Both the position numbers and the translations under genes were made by a program. Below, piece by piece: positions 1 to 5,889 of a stretch of 5,889 bases of DNA. The notes below the pieces were generated by a model, which was given only the letters and a program-made list of their open reading frames with translations, made no database searches and was not told where the DNA came from. Position 1 is the first letter of the stretch; each line of letters starts with the position of its first letter. This DNA comes from Elusimicrobiota bacterium (GTDB lineage Bacteria > CAYTYR01 > UBA6262). The stretch covers positions 872-6,760 of the forward strand of contig PMCA01000020.1 in the NCBI GenBank assembly GCA_003153935.1. The letters run 5' to 3'.

Positions 1-1194
1 GAAGCCATCTATTTTGACAATAATGCCACTATGGCCTATCTGGCGGTAGTCACTGGCCTGCCGATAGGCGGCGCCACTGCTCCCGGCAATCCCTGGTACT
101 ATACTGGCGATATTGGCCTGGACCTGAATAATGACGGTGTCTATGAGTATGGCATTGATGTTCGCGAATATGACGCGGTCAACAAAAAAGCCAAACTATA
201 CAAAAACCTGACTGCCTCTAACTGGCAAGGCTGTTATTTATACCCTTCGTCCAATCCCTGGCAGATAAGCTCCGGTTCCACCTTTGACTGGGTGGATTTT
301 GTCTATAGCGGCAACCAGAATACCCATTATGTGCTGGAAGCGGGTATCCCCTTATCCTCTCTTGGCCTGAATAGCAATTCCTCACAGAACCTGACCGTTC
401 ATTGGACCATGCAGTGCGGCAATGATGCCCTGAACCTGCCGGCTGATGTTAATCCAACTCCTCCTCCTCCGATACCCGAACCGGGCACGATGCTGCTGTT
501 CGGCAGTGGTATCATAGGGTTGCTGGCTACTACCGTCAGGAGATTCTTTAAACAGATTAAAGGCGTATTTGACATAATTGGTTCTACGCTGTTCATTATT
601 ATTTCAGCTCCTCTGTTAGTGGTAATAGCCGCATTGGTGAAGCTGACTTCCCGCGGGCCGGTATTCTTAAAGCAGGAAAGAGTCGGCGAGAACAGGCGCA
701 AGACTGAGCGTCGGGCCGAGAGAAGGAATGTAGGACGCAGGGCTGGTGAAAGTTATGGCCAGCCGTTTAACCTGTTTAAATTCCGTACGATGTATTTTGA
801 CGCGGAGAAACATAGCGGCCCGGTTTGGGCGGAGAAAAATGACCCAAGAATTACACCATTGGGCCGTTTCCTGCGCAAGACCCATCTGGATGAATTACCT
901 CAGTTGATAAATGTGCTAAAGGGTGAAATGAGCATAATAGGCCCCAGGCCCGAAAGACCGATGTTCGTTAAGGCATTGCATGTAGAGATCAAGAAGTATC
1001 CTAACCGCTTAAAGGTCAAGCCCGGTATCACCGGACTGGCCCAGGTCAGGCAGCATTATGATACATCACTAAGGGATGTTAAGAAAAAAGTGCATTATGA
1101 CCTGCTATATATAAGGAAGATGTGTTTATTGATGGACCTGCGGATAGTCTTCGGTACCATGAGGGTAATGTTAACAGGCAAAGGCGCACATTAA
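1..1194 (+). CDS. PEP-CTERM ectodomain fused to an exopolysaccharide sugar transferase (monotopic phosphoglycosyl transferase), 5' partial
   Basis: The frame is open to base 1, so the true start is upstream; residues here count from the Met at base 31. The N-terminal part (about 1-140) is a secreted beta-rich domain with an acidic DLNNDG loop (31-36), similar to domains of other PEP-CTERM proteins. A proline-rich hinge (142-147) leads to PEPGT (149-153), a membrane helix (154-169) and RR (170-171). A bacterial sugar transferase domain follows at once: hydrophobic re-entrant-type helix with S192/P194, SRGPVF (207-212), KFRTM (250-254), NDPRIT (270-275), LDELPQL (286-292), GPRPE (304-308) and KPGITGLAQV (330-339). 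This family moves a sugar phosphate from a nucleotide sugar to polyprenyl phosphate on the cytoplasmic face. The topology agrees: ectodomain outside, basic end and catalytic domain inside. An Arg-rich insert (221-243) interrupts the usual path to KFRTM. Domain calls are firm; the sugar and the processing are unknown. Confidence 0.9.
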   Translation, partial: EAIYFDNNATMAYLAVVTGLPIGGATAPGNPWYYTGDIGLDLNNDGVYEYGIDVREYDAVNKKAKLYKNLTASNWQGCYLYPSSNPWQISSGSTFDWVDFVYSGNQNTHYVLEAGIPLSSLGLNSNSSQNLTVHWTMQCGNDALNLPADVNPTPPPPIPEPGTMLLFGSGIIGLLATTVRRFFKQIKGVFDIIGSTLFIIISAPLLVVIAALVKLTSRGPVFLKQERVGENRRKTERRAERRNVGRRAGESYGQPFNLFKFRTMYFDAEKHSGPVWAEKNDPRITPLGRFLRKTHLDELPQLINVLKGEMSIIGPRPERPMFVKALHVEIKKYPNRLKVKPGITGLAQVRQHYDTSLRDVKKKVHYDLLYIRKMCLLMDLRIVFGTMRVMLTGKGAH

Positions 1195-1325: not shown

Positions 1326-1949
1326 ATGAAAAAGATGATCTTAATAGTGATGTTTAGTTTGATGATGGCAACAACGGCTTTCGCAATTCCGTTGTTACCA
1401 GGCACTTTTGGAGTGGTTCCGACTGGAGTTGCCCCACTAAGTGGTACATTAGTAGCTTCTGTTATTAATGCCCCATTTACTGGCGTAGATGCAAATGGCA
1501 TAGTTAAGTTCACTGGGTTTCTAACTCAGAAGGTGTATTCCACCTCAGCAGGTATGTTATTTACATATCTGTTTAGTAGTGGTTCTGGGTCGGCAAATGT
1601 TATTGAACGACTGTCCACTACTGATTTTACCGGTTGGACAACCGATGTGAATGCACTTCTGACTCCTGGAAACCCTCCTGGTACCTTCGAGAGAAGTTCC
1701 GATGGTTCAACGGTGAGTGGCGCGCATTTTGCAATAGGAGCGGGTCAAACCAGTAGCTTATTATGGATACAGACCAATGCTACAAGTTATAAAATAGGGA
1801 GTACTTCACTGATTGATGGTGGAATAGCAAACATCAGTACCTATGCTCCGTCAGCCCCAGTACCAGAACCAGGTAGTTTAGCACTGCTGGGAATGGGTTT
1901 ATTGGGAATGATCGGCTATGGCAAGGCAAGATTCGGCAAGAAATCGTAA
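1326..1949 (+). CDS. PEP-CTERM sorting domain protein A (paralogue of the gene at 3859)
   Basis: A 207-residue exported protein. The signal peptide ends at AFA (18-20). The mature part is a Ser/Thr/Gly-rich beta domain without catalytic motifs; it resembles a PEP-CTERM family I recognise by pattern, with GTL near the start, a GxLTQxVYSN-like strand, a TTDFTGWTTDV block (98-108), WIQTNAT (147-153) and IDGG (163-166) just before the tail. The tail is VPEPGS (179-184), a glycine-rich hydrophobic helix and GYGKARFGKKS. In this system the protein crosses by Sec, is held by the C-terminal helix and is processed at PEP by an exosortase. Its molecular role is unknown; surface or matrix protein is an inference. 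It has its own promoter candidate and strong ribosome binding site, and an inverted repeat follows its stop. By eye about half its residues match the paralogue. Confidence 0.9.
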   Translation: MKKMILIVMFSLMMATTAFAIPLLPGTFGVVPTGVAPLSGTLVASVINAPFTGVDANGIVKFTGFLTQKVYSTSAGMLFTYLFSSGSGSANVIERLSTTDFTGWTTDVNALLTPGNPPGTFERSSDGSTVSGAHFAIGAGQTSSLLWIQTNATSYKIGSTSLIDGGIANISTYAPSAPVPEPGSLALLGMGLLGMIGYGKARFGKKS

Positions 1950-2162: not shown

Positions 2163-2888
2163 ATGAGAATTAAACGGTTTTGGCAAATGTTCGTGGCGCT
2201 CGGTTTATTAATATTATTGCCCGGTTTGTGCCAGGCCTATACCTATACTGTTGATTTTACCGCCGGAGATATTAAAAGCCATATCACCGACCCCCTAAGC
2301 AATAATGAACATGCCTGGGGCATCTGGGCGCTGGTGGCCTATCCTGACCTGGCGAATTACAGTATCACCGGGTTATCTACTAACCAGGATGAATGGTATG
2401 TGACCCATGATTCCGAATTCGTGGATACGAACGGCGCTTGCTTTAGGGCCGTGCCGGGCGCGGAACTGCCGGGGAATCCGCCTCATCCGCTGCATATGAT
2501 AAGTGACCAGCCGGACCCGTTATCAGATCACCTGATGAGTTATTTTGGCGATACTACTACGAATATAACCAATGGCACTTTGTTCAGCTTTACTTTTACT
2601 TCTGATTCTATTTGGGGTGGTTGCTGGCATTTCCTGCTGGATGGCTCCCGCTATAATAAACAGGCTAATGGTCCCGCCACCTGGGATGAAGATTTCTGGG
2701 GCGGCAGGAATAACGGAGAACCTTTCTGGCTCACCCGCGATTCTGGCGGCGGTTTAGCGGGAAATATAGACGGTTATATGGTGTGTCGTCCCGTACCGGA
2801 ACCGGGTAGCTTGTGGATGCTGGGGATGGGATTGTTAGGCTTGATCGGCTATGGCAAGGCCAGATTAATGGTAAAGGGAGGGAAGTAG
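2163..2888 (+). CDS. PEP-CTERM sorting domain protein, Trp/Asp-rich
   Basis: A 241-residue exported protein, first gene of a two-gene operon. The N-terminus MRIKR and a long hydrophobic core end at CQA (23-25), a plausible signal peptidase I site. The Cys there lacks the small residue before it that a lipobox needs. The mature region is rich in Trp, Asp, Asn and Gly, starts with YTYTVDFTAGD and contains two later cysteines (154, 208). No enzyme motif is visible. The tail is VPEPGS (211-216), a glycine-rich hydrophobic helix and GYGKARLMVKGGK, close to the tails of genes A and B although the bodies are unrelated. Export and exosortase processing follow from the family; the function is unknown. 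The next gene starts one base after its stop. Confidence 0.9.
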   Translation: MRIKRFWQMFVALGLLILLPGLCQAYTYTVDFTAGDIKSHITDPLSNNEHAWGIWALVAYPDLANYSITGLSTNQDEWYVTHDSEFVDTNGACFRAVPGAELPGNPPHPLHMISDQPDPLSDHLMSYFGDTTTNITNGTLFSFTFTSDSIWGGCWHFLLDGSRYNKQANGPATWDEDFWGGRNNGEPFWLTRDSGGGLAGNIDGYMVCRPVPEPGSLWMLGMGLLGLIGYGKARLMVKGGK

Positions 2889-2889
2889 C

Positions 2890-3579
2890 GTGAAAAAGCT
2901 TTTTTTGTTGGCGGTTATATCGCTCTTAGTCTTTGGTTTGGCCGGCTCGGCAAATGCTACTTATGTAAATATTTACAACCTGGGGTTGGTATATTCTCCT
3001 GATTCCACGAGCAAAACCAATCCCGCAAATATTAATTCTTTAACAGATGTGGCAGTGAACACTGGGGGCTCAGTTTTTATCGGTGCGAAAGATGACAATG
3101 TTATATGGCCTGATAATGCTAGTCAACCAGTCGGTATTTTTGGTGTAGGCGCTCCCCTGGCTTCGTTAGGAACGACGCCCGGTTTTTATAATATAAAATT
3201 TGACAGTCATTTCCGTACCTTTGATAGCACGGGATTTGATGATTTCCTGGCAGTAATTACACAGGGGAACTATTTATGGGCGGGCGGCAGCTTGATAGGC
3301 GGCTATGATTGGGGCGGGACAGATGAAGATGCAGCCCTGGCAACAAGCGATATTTCTCCGGCTATAAAGATGGCCACTGTTATTGTGAATCCTGCATCAA
3401 ATTACTATCTTAATATGGTCCTGAAGACCACTGGGGATGATACTTTTCCGTCTTGGGGCAGGTTCAGTGATGTTGGGGTGGAGTACAATGAATGCAGTCC
3501 CGTACCTGAACCGGGCAGTTTAATGCTAATGGGTATGGGGTTGTTGGGACTGCTGGGACTGAGGATGAAAATACGTTAG
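2890..3579 (+). CDS. PEP-CTERM sorting domain protein, GTG start
   Basis: A 229-residue exported protein. It starts with GTG one base after the previous stop, with AGGGAGGG inside the upstream coding end as ribosome binding site, so the two genes are very likely co-transcribed and translationally coupled. The signal peptide MKKLFLLAVI with a hydrophobic core ends at ANA (21-23). The mature domain is beta-rich, with many Asp, Gly and aromatic residues (for example FDSTGFDDFL near 111-120 and GGYDWGGTDEDAA near 137-149). No catalytic motif is recognisable. The tail has VPEPGS (205-210), a Leu/Gly/Met helix and a short basic end, RMKIR, without the GYGKAR motif of its neighbours. Sorting is as for the other PEP-CTERM proteins; the specific role is unknown. 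A hairpin terminator follows at 3709. Confidence 0.9.
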   Translation: MKKLFLLAVISLLVFGLAGSANATYVNIYNLGLVYSPDSTSKTNPANINSLTDVAVNTGGSVFIGAKDDNVIWPDNASQPVGIFGVGAPLASLGTTPGFYNIKFDSHFRTFDSTGFDDFLAVITQGNYLWAGGSLIGGYDWGGTDEDAALATSDISPAIKMATVIVNPASNYYLNMVLKTTGDDTFPSWGRFSDVGVEYNECSPVPEPGSLMLMGMGLLGLLGLRMKIR

Positions 3580-3815: not shown

Positions 3816-3858
3816 ATGAAGAAGAAGTACATACAATAAAGGGAAGGGGGTGAAAATT

Positions 3859-4482
3859 ATGAAAAGGATTATTTTAGTGGCGATATTTAGTTTAATGATG
3901 GCATCAACGGCTTTTGCCTTTTCGTTGGTACCGGGATCTAGCGTTACGCCTGATGGGACAGCCTCACTTGGCGGAACATTAGTCGCTTCTATTGTCAATA
4001 CCCCATTCAGCAATGTTTGGTTTAATGGCACACTGACGCAGAATGTTTATTCCAACGCAATTGGTATGTTATTTGAATACCAGATCACCAATTCAGAATC
4101 ATCAATCAATAAAATTGCAAGGTTGTCAACGACCGATTTTACCGGTTGGACAACTGATGTAAACTCACTGCTAGGCGGTAGCTTAGTCAATCCATTGTCA
4201 ATCGTTAGAGATTCTTCTGGTTCGACTTTAAGTTTTAACTATGTCAGCCCTACTGGGGTTGGCGATCTTGGCCAGGGACAGACAACGAATATTGGATGGA
4301 TACAGACTAACGCTACAGGTTTTACGTGGGGAACTTCAGCAGTGATCGATGGCGGCATATCACAGGTCCGTACCTATGCTCCTACTTCGGCGGTTCCTGA
4401 GCCGGGCAGCTTTATGCTGATGGGCGCGGGATTACTGGGATTGATCGGCTACGGCAAGGCCAGGTTCGGCAAGAAAGCGTAA
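3859..4482 (+). CDS. PEP-CTERM sorting domain protein B (paralogue of the gene at 1326)
   Basis: A 207-residue exported protein of the same length as paralogue A, with PEP at the same residues (180-182). The start is ATG 3859, preceded by GGGAAGGGGGTGAAAATT. An in-frame GTG at 3850 would add three residues but lies inside this ribosome binding site, and the matching GTG before gene A is out of frame. The signal peptide ends at AFA (18-20). Blocks shared with A are GTLVAS, GMLF, RLSTTDFTGWTTDVN (88-102; 15 identical residues in a row), WIQTNAT, IDGGI, TYAP and GYGKARFGKK. Between these blocks the two differ strongly and have compensating small indels, which points to an old duplication with divergence of exposed loops. 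The function is unknown; exosortase-dependent surface display is inferred. The inverted repeat found after A also follows this gene. Confidence 0.9.
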   Translation: MKRIILVAIFSLMMASTAFAFSLVPGSSVTPDGTASLGGTLVASIVNTPFSNVWFNGTLTQNVYSNAIGMLFEYQITNSESSINKIARLSTTDFTGWTTDVNSLLGGSLVNPLSIVRDSSGSTLSFNYVSPTGVGDLGQGQTTNIGWIQTNATGFTWGTSAVIDGGISQVRTYAPTSAVPEPGSFMLMGAGLLGLIGYGKARFGKKA

Positions 4483-4581: not shown

Positions 4582-5064
4582 ATGAAAAAAGTTATATTTC
4601 TAATCTTCATATTGCTATTATTATCTATGCCCTCTATCGGTCTCGCGGGAGGCCTAAGCATTGGCTTAGGTTATCCTTATGTTTCTATTAAGTATGATTT
4701 CCCGGTTATGGCTATTGAAGGAAGGTTTGTCACTGAATCAGGAGTCAAGGCGTATTCCGGCCGGGGCTACTGGAATTACTACTCGAGCGATCAACTAAAG
4801 GGTTTTACCGGATTGGAAGGCGGGTATATCAACTTTGATACCCTGGAAACCAAAGGGACCGGTTACGAAGGGGCGGTATTTTTAGGCGGAGAATATTTTA
4901 TGAATAAGTGGCTTTCGGTGCTATTAGACTTGGCCCCCACATATATGTCTTTAAAACATGACGCTGATTCCAGCGTTAGTGTCCAAGGTTTTGACTTAGT
5001 GGTAAATATTGCCCTTTATGTCCATTTTGGCGGCAATACAGAAGGAGATAAAAAGAATGAGTGA
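4582..5064 (+). CDS. Small predicted outer-membrane beta-barrel protein
   Basis: A 160-residue protein. ATG 4582 is chosen because the purine-rich AGGCGGGGGG lies just before it and a clear signal peptide begins there (MKK, then a Leu/Ile core, ending near LAG at 21-23). A longer frame from 4513 would put a charged, non-conserved stretch and the inverted repeat inside the gene. The mature part alternates short amphipathic strands and turns: GLSIGLGYPYVSIKYDF, then MAIEGRFV, an Arg/Tyr-rich strand near 60-67, FTGLEGGYINF, GTGYEGAVFLGGEYF, LSVLLDLAPTYMSL and VVNIALYVHFGG near the C-terminus. This is the pattern of a small (about 8-strand) OmpA/OmpX-size barrel. The barrel call is structural inference; no ligand or enzyme site is seen. 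It overlaps the next gene by 8 bases, so the two products probably work together. Confidence 0.75.
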   Translation: MKKVIFLIFILLLLSMPSIGLAGGLSIGLGYPYVSIKYDFPVMAIEGRFVTESGVKAYSGRGYWNYYSSDQLKGFTGLEGGYINFDTLETKGTGYEGAVFLGGEYFMNKWLSVLLDLAPTYMSLKHDADSSVSVQGFDLVVNIALYVHFGGNTEGDKKNE

Positions 5065-5889
5065 GCCAATCAGGAAATATTATAAAATCATCCCGGCAGC
5101 GCTAATTGCCGTGATATTAATATCTGGCTTTTCTTTTAATTCTTTTGCCGGAACTTATATGGGACTTGCCTCCGCGGTTAAATCCAGGGTCCAGCAGTTA
5201 AAAGATGAGAAAGAAAAACAGCAGGAAGAAAGCATAGCTATTACTGCCACCGATGGCACTGATGTTACCAATCATCCGCCGGTAATTGCATCTTTAACGG
5301 CAAATCCTGCGAGTATCCCCGTCGCCATAAACACAACCATTACCTGCAGCGCTTCGGATCCTGATAATAACCCCCTGGCCTATGGCTGGAGCGCGGCCCA
5401 AGGGATAATAACCGGAACTGGCTCAATTATTATCTGGACAGCCCCCGCCACCAGCGGTTCATATATGATTTCCTGTACAGTATCAGATGGGAAGGGCGGA
5501 ACTGCCCAGCAAAGCGTGACTGTAACAGCGACCGCTGTCGCGCCTCCTGCGCCTATTGTGCCTGCAAATTGGACCAAACAATTTGGCACAATATTTGATG
5601 ACGAGGGGTTGGCAGTGGCCACAGATACCTCCGGCAATATTTATATTACCGGGTGGACCGATGGCGATTTAGACGGTAATACCAATAAAGGCTCTCATGA
5701 CATATTCCTGATTAAGTATGATATCACTGGAACCAAGATCTGGACAAAGCTGCTTGGCACATCTGTCGCGGATGAGGGTTTAGGGGTGGCTGTAGATCCA
5801 TCAGGTAATGTTTATGTCACTGGCTATACCTTTGGCGATCTGGACGGCAATACCAATCAGGGCGGACAGGATGTGTTTTTAACGAAGTA
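5057..5889 (+). CDS. Secreted Ig-like and SBBP beta-propeller repeat protein, 3' partial
   Basis: The frame starts at ATG 5057, with GGAGAT ahead of it inside the upstream gene, and stays open to the window end (277 full codons). It overlaps the barrel gene by 8 bases. The N-terminus is a signal sequence with a core near 11-24, ending around FNSFA (27-31). A short charged, coiled-coil-like stretch follows (about 40-58; VQQLKDEKEKQQEE). Next is an Ig/PKD-like domain (about 73-158) with C97, W111 and C140 in Ig-like spacing, DPDNNPL (101-107) and SDGKGG (143-148). After a Pro/Ala linker (160-170) come SBBP propeller repeats of 57 residues, starting at W172 and W229, each with SGNxYxTG and GDLDGNTN. 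Such proteins are extracellular and usually carry many more repeats, so most of the propeller probably lies outside the window. The ligand is unknown. Confidence 0.85.
   Translation, partial: MSEPIRKYYKIIPAALIAVILISGFSFNSFAGTYMGLASAVKSRVQQLKDEKEKQQEESIAITATDGTDVTNHPPVIASLTANPASIPVAINTTITCSASDPDNNPLAYGWSAAQGIITGTGSIIIWTAPATSGSYMISCTVSDGKGGTAQQSVTVTATAVAPPAPIVPANWTKQFGTIFDDEGLAVATDTSGNIYITGWTDGDLDGNTNKGSHDIFLIKYDITGTKIWTKLLGTSVADEGLGVAVDPSGNVYVTGYTFGDLDGNTNQGGQDVFLTK
5570..5889 (+). repeat. Tandem 171-base SBBP coding repeats (1.9 units visible)
   Basis: Unit 1 starts at TGG 5570 and unit 2 at TGG 5741, exactly 171 bases (57 codons) apart. Over the 49 complete residues of unit 2 that are visible, 32 match unit 1. 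DEGL, SGN, GDLDGNTN and the spaced D.FL.K pattern are constant. The codons differ widely between the units, so they are long diverged and under protein-level selection, not a recent slippage product. Confidence 0.85.

Follow-up and report, generated by a model that had tools for sequence, protein, structure and literature searches.

The tie between exosortases and exopolysaccharide has been recognized from gene neighbourhood since 2006. The sorting signal of PEP-CTERM proteins typically lies at the very end of the polypeptide, with 87% of the known proteins having fewer than 10 residues after it (PMC1569441), and in other systems sorting tags in mid-protein positions are reportedly functional (PMC11980579). 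The compound to which exosortases attach proteins is described as yet to be identified (PMC7468200). Among the phosphoglycosyl transferases (PGTs), EpsB2 of the XrtA/PEP-CTERM system (TIGR03013) is needed for floc formation in Aquincola (PMC9850573), and the bifunctional monotopic enzymes (Bi-PGTs) also carry fused domains (PMC10942596).

The window analysed here, a stretch of 5,889 nucleotides from the draft genome of an Elusimicrobiota bacterium (GCA_003153935.1, contig PMCA01000020.1, positions 872 to 6,760), encodes a protein in which a PEP-CTERM signal and a PGT are joined in one polypeptide. The fusion is real. The features of the window are as follows:

1..474, + strand: C-terminal part of a secreted ectodomain, window-frame residues 1-158 (open frame; relatives of 497, 503 and 493 amino acids with the same ectodomain)
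475..543, + strand: PEP-CTERM signal with PEP motif, transmembrane helix and RR, residues 159-181 (PF07589 over cut-off)
571..648, + strand: predicted re-entrant membrane helix of a monotopic PGT with D191 and P204 (60/60 relatives; helix in the model; alignment to PglC and WbaP)
649..1191, + strand: predicted cytoplasmic PGT catalytic domain with KFRTM, D297-E298 (889-894), GPRPE and KPGITG (PF02397; PglC/WbaP match by sequence and fold)
694..765, + strand: insert of about 24 residues, rich in Arg, that lies between RVGEN and FKFRTM of the PGT domain (alignment)
1326..1949, + strand: separate PEP-CTERM protein downstream of the PGT (PF07589 over cut-off)
2163..2888, + strand: separate PEP-CTERM protein (PF07589 over cut-off)
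2890..3579, + strand: separate PEP-CTERM protein (PF07589 over cut-off)
3850..4482, + strand: separate PEP-CTERM protein (PF07589 over cut-off)
5009-5887: reading frame that contains SBBP beta-propeller repeats plus an Ig/PKD-like domain and runs on beyond the window

A single open frame extends from window base 1 to the stop codon at 1192-1194 and gives a 397-residue reading across the junction. Within it the PEP-CTERM profile PF07589 covers residues 157-181 (25.9 bits, cut-off 20.7), TIGR02595 also scores above its threshold (18.9 bits, cut-off 16), and PF02397 (Bac_transf) matches the rest of the reading with 209.5 bits against a cut-off of 27. The sequence-only reading of this DNA, which had proposed one polypeptide with a complete sugar transferase domain behind the RR pair, is thereby borne out; its RR at 170-171 corresponds to residues 180-181 of the window frame, with D191 of the re-entrant helix 10 residues further on, and its topology, with the ectodomain outside and the catalytic domain inside, is coherent. 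It erred in placing the start of the gene at base 31. The open frame reaches back to base 1 and the gene begins upstream, bases 1-1194 being its 3' part; the likely ATG is at contig position C34:610, where a signal peptide (MKNLIRALLVALMLISASVAHA, read by eye) begins, and N-terminal signal peptides were likewise read by eye in relatives.

The PEP motif, the hydrophobic helix and the basic cluster of a PEP-CTERM signal are all present in the fused protein. The signal is, however, not placed at the extreme C-terminus, as a whole PGT follows. This part carries the re-entrant helix with its Pro (D191, P204) and the catalytic Asp-Glu pair (D297-E298), conserved in relatives, and its fold matches PglC and WbaP; it is a predicted phosphoglycosyl transferase with a complete catalytic core. 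The Arg-rich insert (694-765) is common to the window's group and to a further Elusimicrobia locus (L034), and is missing in Omnitrophota and in the TIGR03013 relatives.

That an assembly or frameshift artefact joined two genes could be suspected from two N's in the 5' region of the gene (G000:C34:870-871, directly before base 1 of the window). As printed they shift the two halves of the gene out of frame, which a gap of 1 or 4 bases would not do; in intact relatives (497 and 503 amino acids) the ectodomain is continuous at this point. However, the N's lie about 470 bases from the junction, which they leave unaffected, and in comparisons with G001, G002 and G003 the PEP-CTERM and PGT parts show far more silent than amino acid change. 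Since homologues with the identical junction occur in many separate assemblies, the junction did not arise in assembly, and an artefact, vanishingly improbable in our estimate, is ruled out.

The distribution of the junction was assessed by scanning GTDB genomes for a pattern and by sampling two phyla. Searching with the ectodomain and junction yielded counterparts over the full length in G001 (59% identity) and G004 (52%), while G002 and G003 carry the same junction with other or shortened ectodomains; G003 shares a 22,022-base contig and the protein with L031, Elusimicrobia bacterium UBA6262 (NCBI: Elusimicrobiota). A profile of the 77-residue junction, built from 11 sequences, gave a whole-junction match in all five species examined in the window's phylum-level group, and a match covering PEP in about 55 of 384 Omnitrophota species genomes. 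Most of the Omnitrophota members are 260-340 amino acids long and consist of a signal peptide, about 40 residues, PEP, the helix and the PGT. Among the matches listed by the GTDB scan were another Elusimicrobia genome with the same ectodomain (L034) and four Omnitrophota; those matches in other phyla that were inspected proved to be long PGTs or PEP-CTERM proteins of the ordinary kind, none of them a fusion. The sequence-only reading had expected a genuine fusion to recur in many independent, mostly exosortase-positive genomes, and had regarded it as fatal if no other genome showed the two parts within a single frame; homologues of the former description were found, with both parts in one frame.

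Phylogenetically, the fused PGTs form one clade (support 98/94 in the careful tree), sister to the PGTs that score above the TIGR03013 cut-off (joint clade 96/94). The fused PGT itself reaches 243.9 bits with TIGR03013 (EpsB2), below the family cut-off of 393.35; the profile aligns in its C-terminal part only, with the best stretch at positions 295-442. A separate, ordinary PGT of about 475 amino acids is also present in all five genomes checked. The sister clade of nine Omnitrophota PGTs retains the membrane helix and lacks PEP, and two further sequences, nested among the PEP-type members, have lost it. A link between the loss of PEP on the PGT and loss of the whole system was considered and is unsupported, as the exosortase is kept in 11/11 of these PEP-less genomes and PEP-CTERM proteins in 8/11. 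The PGT stays near an exosortase in the PEP-less clade and in the two sequences that have lost the motif, so the system does not require PEP on this enzyme. In most of the PEP-less loci (L213-L223, Omnitrophota) the exosortase is found downstream of the PGT rather than upstream.

The usual order in Omnitrophota, on one strand, is exosortase, EpsI and PEP-CTERM-PGT; PEP-CTERM genes often come next, along with a membrane protein of 280-300 amino acids without an assigned family. Across 65 loci, a set that includes PEP-less ones and L034, exosortase genes were identified in 58 and EpsI genes in 55; in L032 both score above the cut-offs of TIGR02602 and TIGR02914. The earlier link of the gene to glycan priming is strengthened by this position beside exosortase and EpsI in Omnitrophota, together with the sister relationship to EpsB2/TIGR03013. 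At the genome level an exosortase is present in 53 of 55 PEP-type Omnitrophota genomes versus 64 of 329 others (Fisher p = 1e-29, a value that overstates the number of independent events as the genomes are related), and in the two exosortase-less PEP-type genomes the PGT lies on contigs shorter than 4 kb. The membrane protein of 280-300 amino acids and no known family (L013:1044-1940, contig C34, and homologues) stands beside the PEP-CTERM-PGT in 43 of the 65 loci. Also observed, right after the PEP-CTERM-PGT locus, were small proteins (L032:9349-9663 and L063:8626-8991) which by eye have a lipoprotein-type N-terminus and carry a C-terminal PEP-CTERM tail, and so look as if marked for two anchors.

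In the window the fused PGT is followed by the PEP-CTERM cluster and by homologues of the membrane and TPR proteins of L034, where the order is PEP-CTERM genes, fused PGT, membrane protein, TPR protein, exosortase, EpsI and, by eye, putative polysaccharide export genes. Profile searches detected no exosortase in the window's own draft genome (G000, 95.4% complete), either at the locus or in the rest of the draft, which has seven PEP-CTERM motifs. Nor was an exosortase found in G002 or G004 (G000, G002 and G004 are drafts, 88-95% complete), while G001 and G003 have one. One candidate in G000 (contig C12; PF09721, E 3.7e-4, below cut-off) was rejected as its reading frame resembles, by eye, a Pit-type phosphate transporter.

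The ectodomain has a counterpart as a gene of its own. With a profile of the window-type ectodomain, separate PEP-CTERM proteins encoded downstream of the PGT in the same orientation were identified in about ten Omnitrophota loci, in several of them within about 40 bases of the PGT gene or overlapping it. The partner in G250, 18 bases downstream of the PGT, is 48% identical to the ectodomain of the window, and in G003 a separate partner gene lies 54 bases downstream of the shortened fusion. Thus in one lineage the partner stands as a gene next to the PGT, while in the other it forms the N-terminal half of the fusion, a Rosetta stone arrangement. A simple read-through fusion of neighbours is an unlikely origin, because the partner gene is downstream of the PGT yet the ectodomain is N-terminal in the fusion; recombination between the two PEP-CTERM segments is a possible alternative. 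No family was found for the ectodomain in Pfam or NCBIfam beyond the PEP-CTERM tail. Confidence in the structure models was low to moderate (mean pLDDT 67.5 and 63.2), and the best fold matches of the ectodomain (glucodextranase, the gamma subunit of ethylbenzene dehydrogenase and a putative carbohydrate-binding protein; Z 5.8-6.4) give only a hint of a CBM9/DOMON-like sandwich. The idea that the ectodomain acts as a sensor fails as a general reading, because most members carry only a signal peptide and about 40 unconserved residues before PEP.

The PEP motif shows a different pattern from the residues preceding it. Among 60 PEP-type members, a count of related sequences that omits the 11 PGTs classed as PEP-less, the motif is conserved as P in 59, E in 60 and P in 56; the search profile itself includes PEP, and the PEP-less sequences were found with it too. 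Three PGT positions, the re-entrant helix D and P plus an S close by, are invariant (60/60 each), while the linker columns preceding PEP mostly hold less than 1.5 bits. P-E-P is thus conserved as strictly as the core residues of the PGT and the linker is not, and the motif looks selected. In 2006 Haft et al. suspected the few PEP-CTERM motifs located far from the C-terminus to be non-functional (PMC1569441); for the clade of fused PGTs, the conservation argues against this.

We infer that the gene encodes the priming PGT of an exosortase/exopolysaccharide system, whose tag docks the exosortase and is cut at PEP at least part of the time, a proposal that we regard as evenly balanced. The ectodomain and PEP would lie outside, a single helix would cross the membrane and the PGT would work inside. 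Docking on the priming enzyme by way of the PEP-CTERM signal would bring the start of the lipid-linked glycan and the sorting of PEP-CTERM proteins to one place. When the exosortase cuts at PEP, the ectodomain (in Omnitrophota the peptide of about 40 residues) would pass to the acceptor of the exosortase, and the active PGT would stay bound to the membrane. A bolder form, in which exosortase and PEP-CTERM-PGT make up one membrane complex and PEP-CTERM proteins are transferred onto the lipid-linked glycan started by the PGT, is unlikely; if true, it would identify the acceptor of exosortases, and the fusion would be its evolutionary trace.

The same observations may be read without any exosortase action, the PEP-CTERM segment being only a membrane anchor, or a relic, derived from a PEP-CTERM gene. 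The helix retained in the PEP-less clade, the failure to find an exosortase in the window's own draft genome and the suspicion of Haft et al. (PMC1569441) are all consistent with this. However, an anchor needs no PEP, and neither the strictness of P-E-P in 60 members, matching the PGT core and not shared by the linker, nor the exosortase gene that usually adjoins this one would be expected of it, which leaves it rather unlikely. The conservation of PEP and the exosortase neighbourhood would be accommodated equally by a proteolytic switch, in which the cut activates, inactivates or times the PGT and the glycan need not be the acceptor; the tag persists where ectodomains differ or are all but missing, which fits a cut that matters more than its cargo. 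Against such a switch, no example is known of an exosortase regulating an enzyme, and the PEP-less clade retains its PGT; we consider it distinctly improbable. The presence of the fusion in dozens of species, in Omnitrophota usually beside an exosortase gene, is evidence for physical coupling. As substrate and enzyme are contained in one protein, such a construct makes the long-suspected link between protein sorting and the sugar coat directly testable, in two poorly studied bacterial groups.

No report of a PEP-CTERM-PGT architecture was found in the literature covered, which is partial; nor did that literature yield a paper on PEP-CTERM proteins in Omnitrophota or on exosortases in Elusimicrobiota. 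Like the PEP-CTERM proteins (PF07589/TIGR02595), the fusion has a signal peptide, a PEP motif, a helix and basic residues, and scores over cut-off, but its signal is internal with about 215 residues behind it. It shares its predicted catalytic core and fold with the small and bifunctional monotopic PGTs (PglC-like, Bi-PGT), among which no described member fused to a sorting signal was found. With TIGR03013/EpsB2, the PGT of the XrtA/PEP-CTERM system, it has in common the sister position in the PGT tree and the tie to exosortase systems; those relatives possess an N-terminal four-helix membrane domain and a DUF, whereas the fusion instead has a signal peptide, an ectodomain and the PEP-CTERM signal. 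The internal MYXO-CTERM protein MXAN_5598 and the EpsH-CAAX protease fusions are precedents for an internal tag and for a Rosetta stone fusion in a sorting system, respectively (PMC11980579, PMC1569441), but neither couples a sorting tag to a glycan-priming enzyme. The parts of the fusion all belong to known families; what is new is their combination, its conservation and its neighbourhood.
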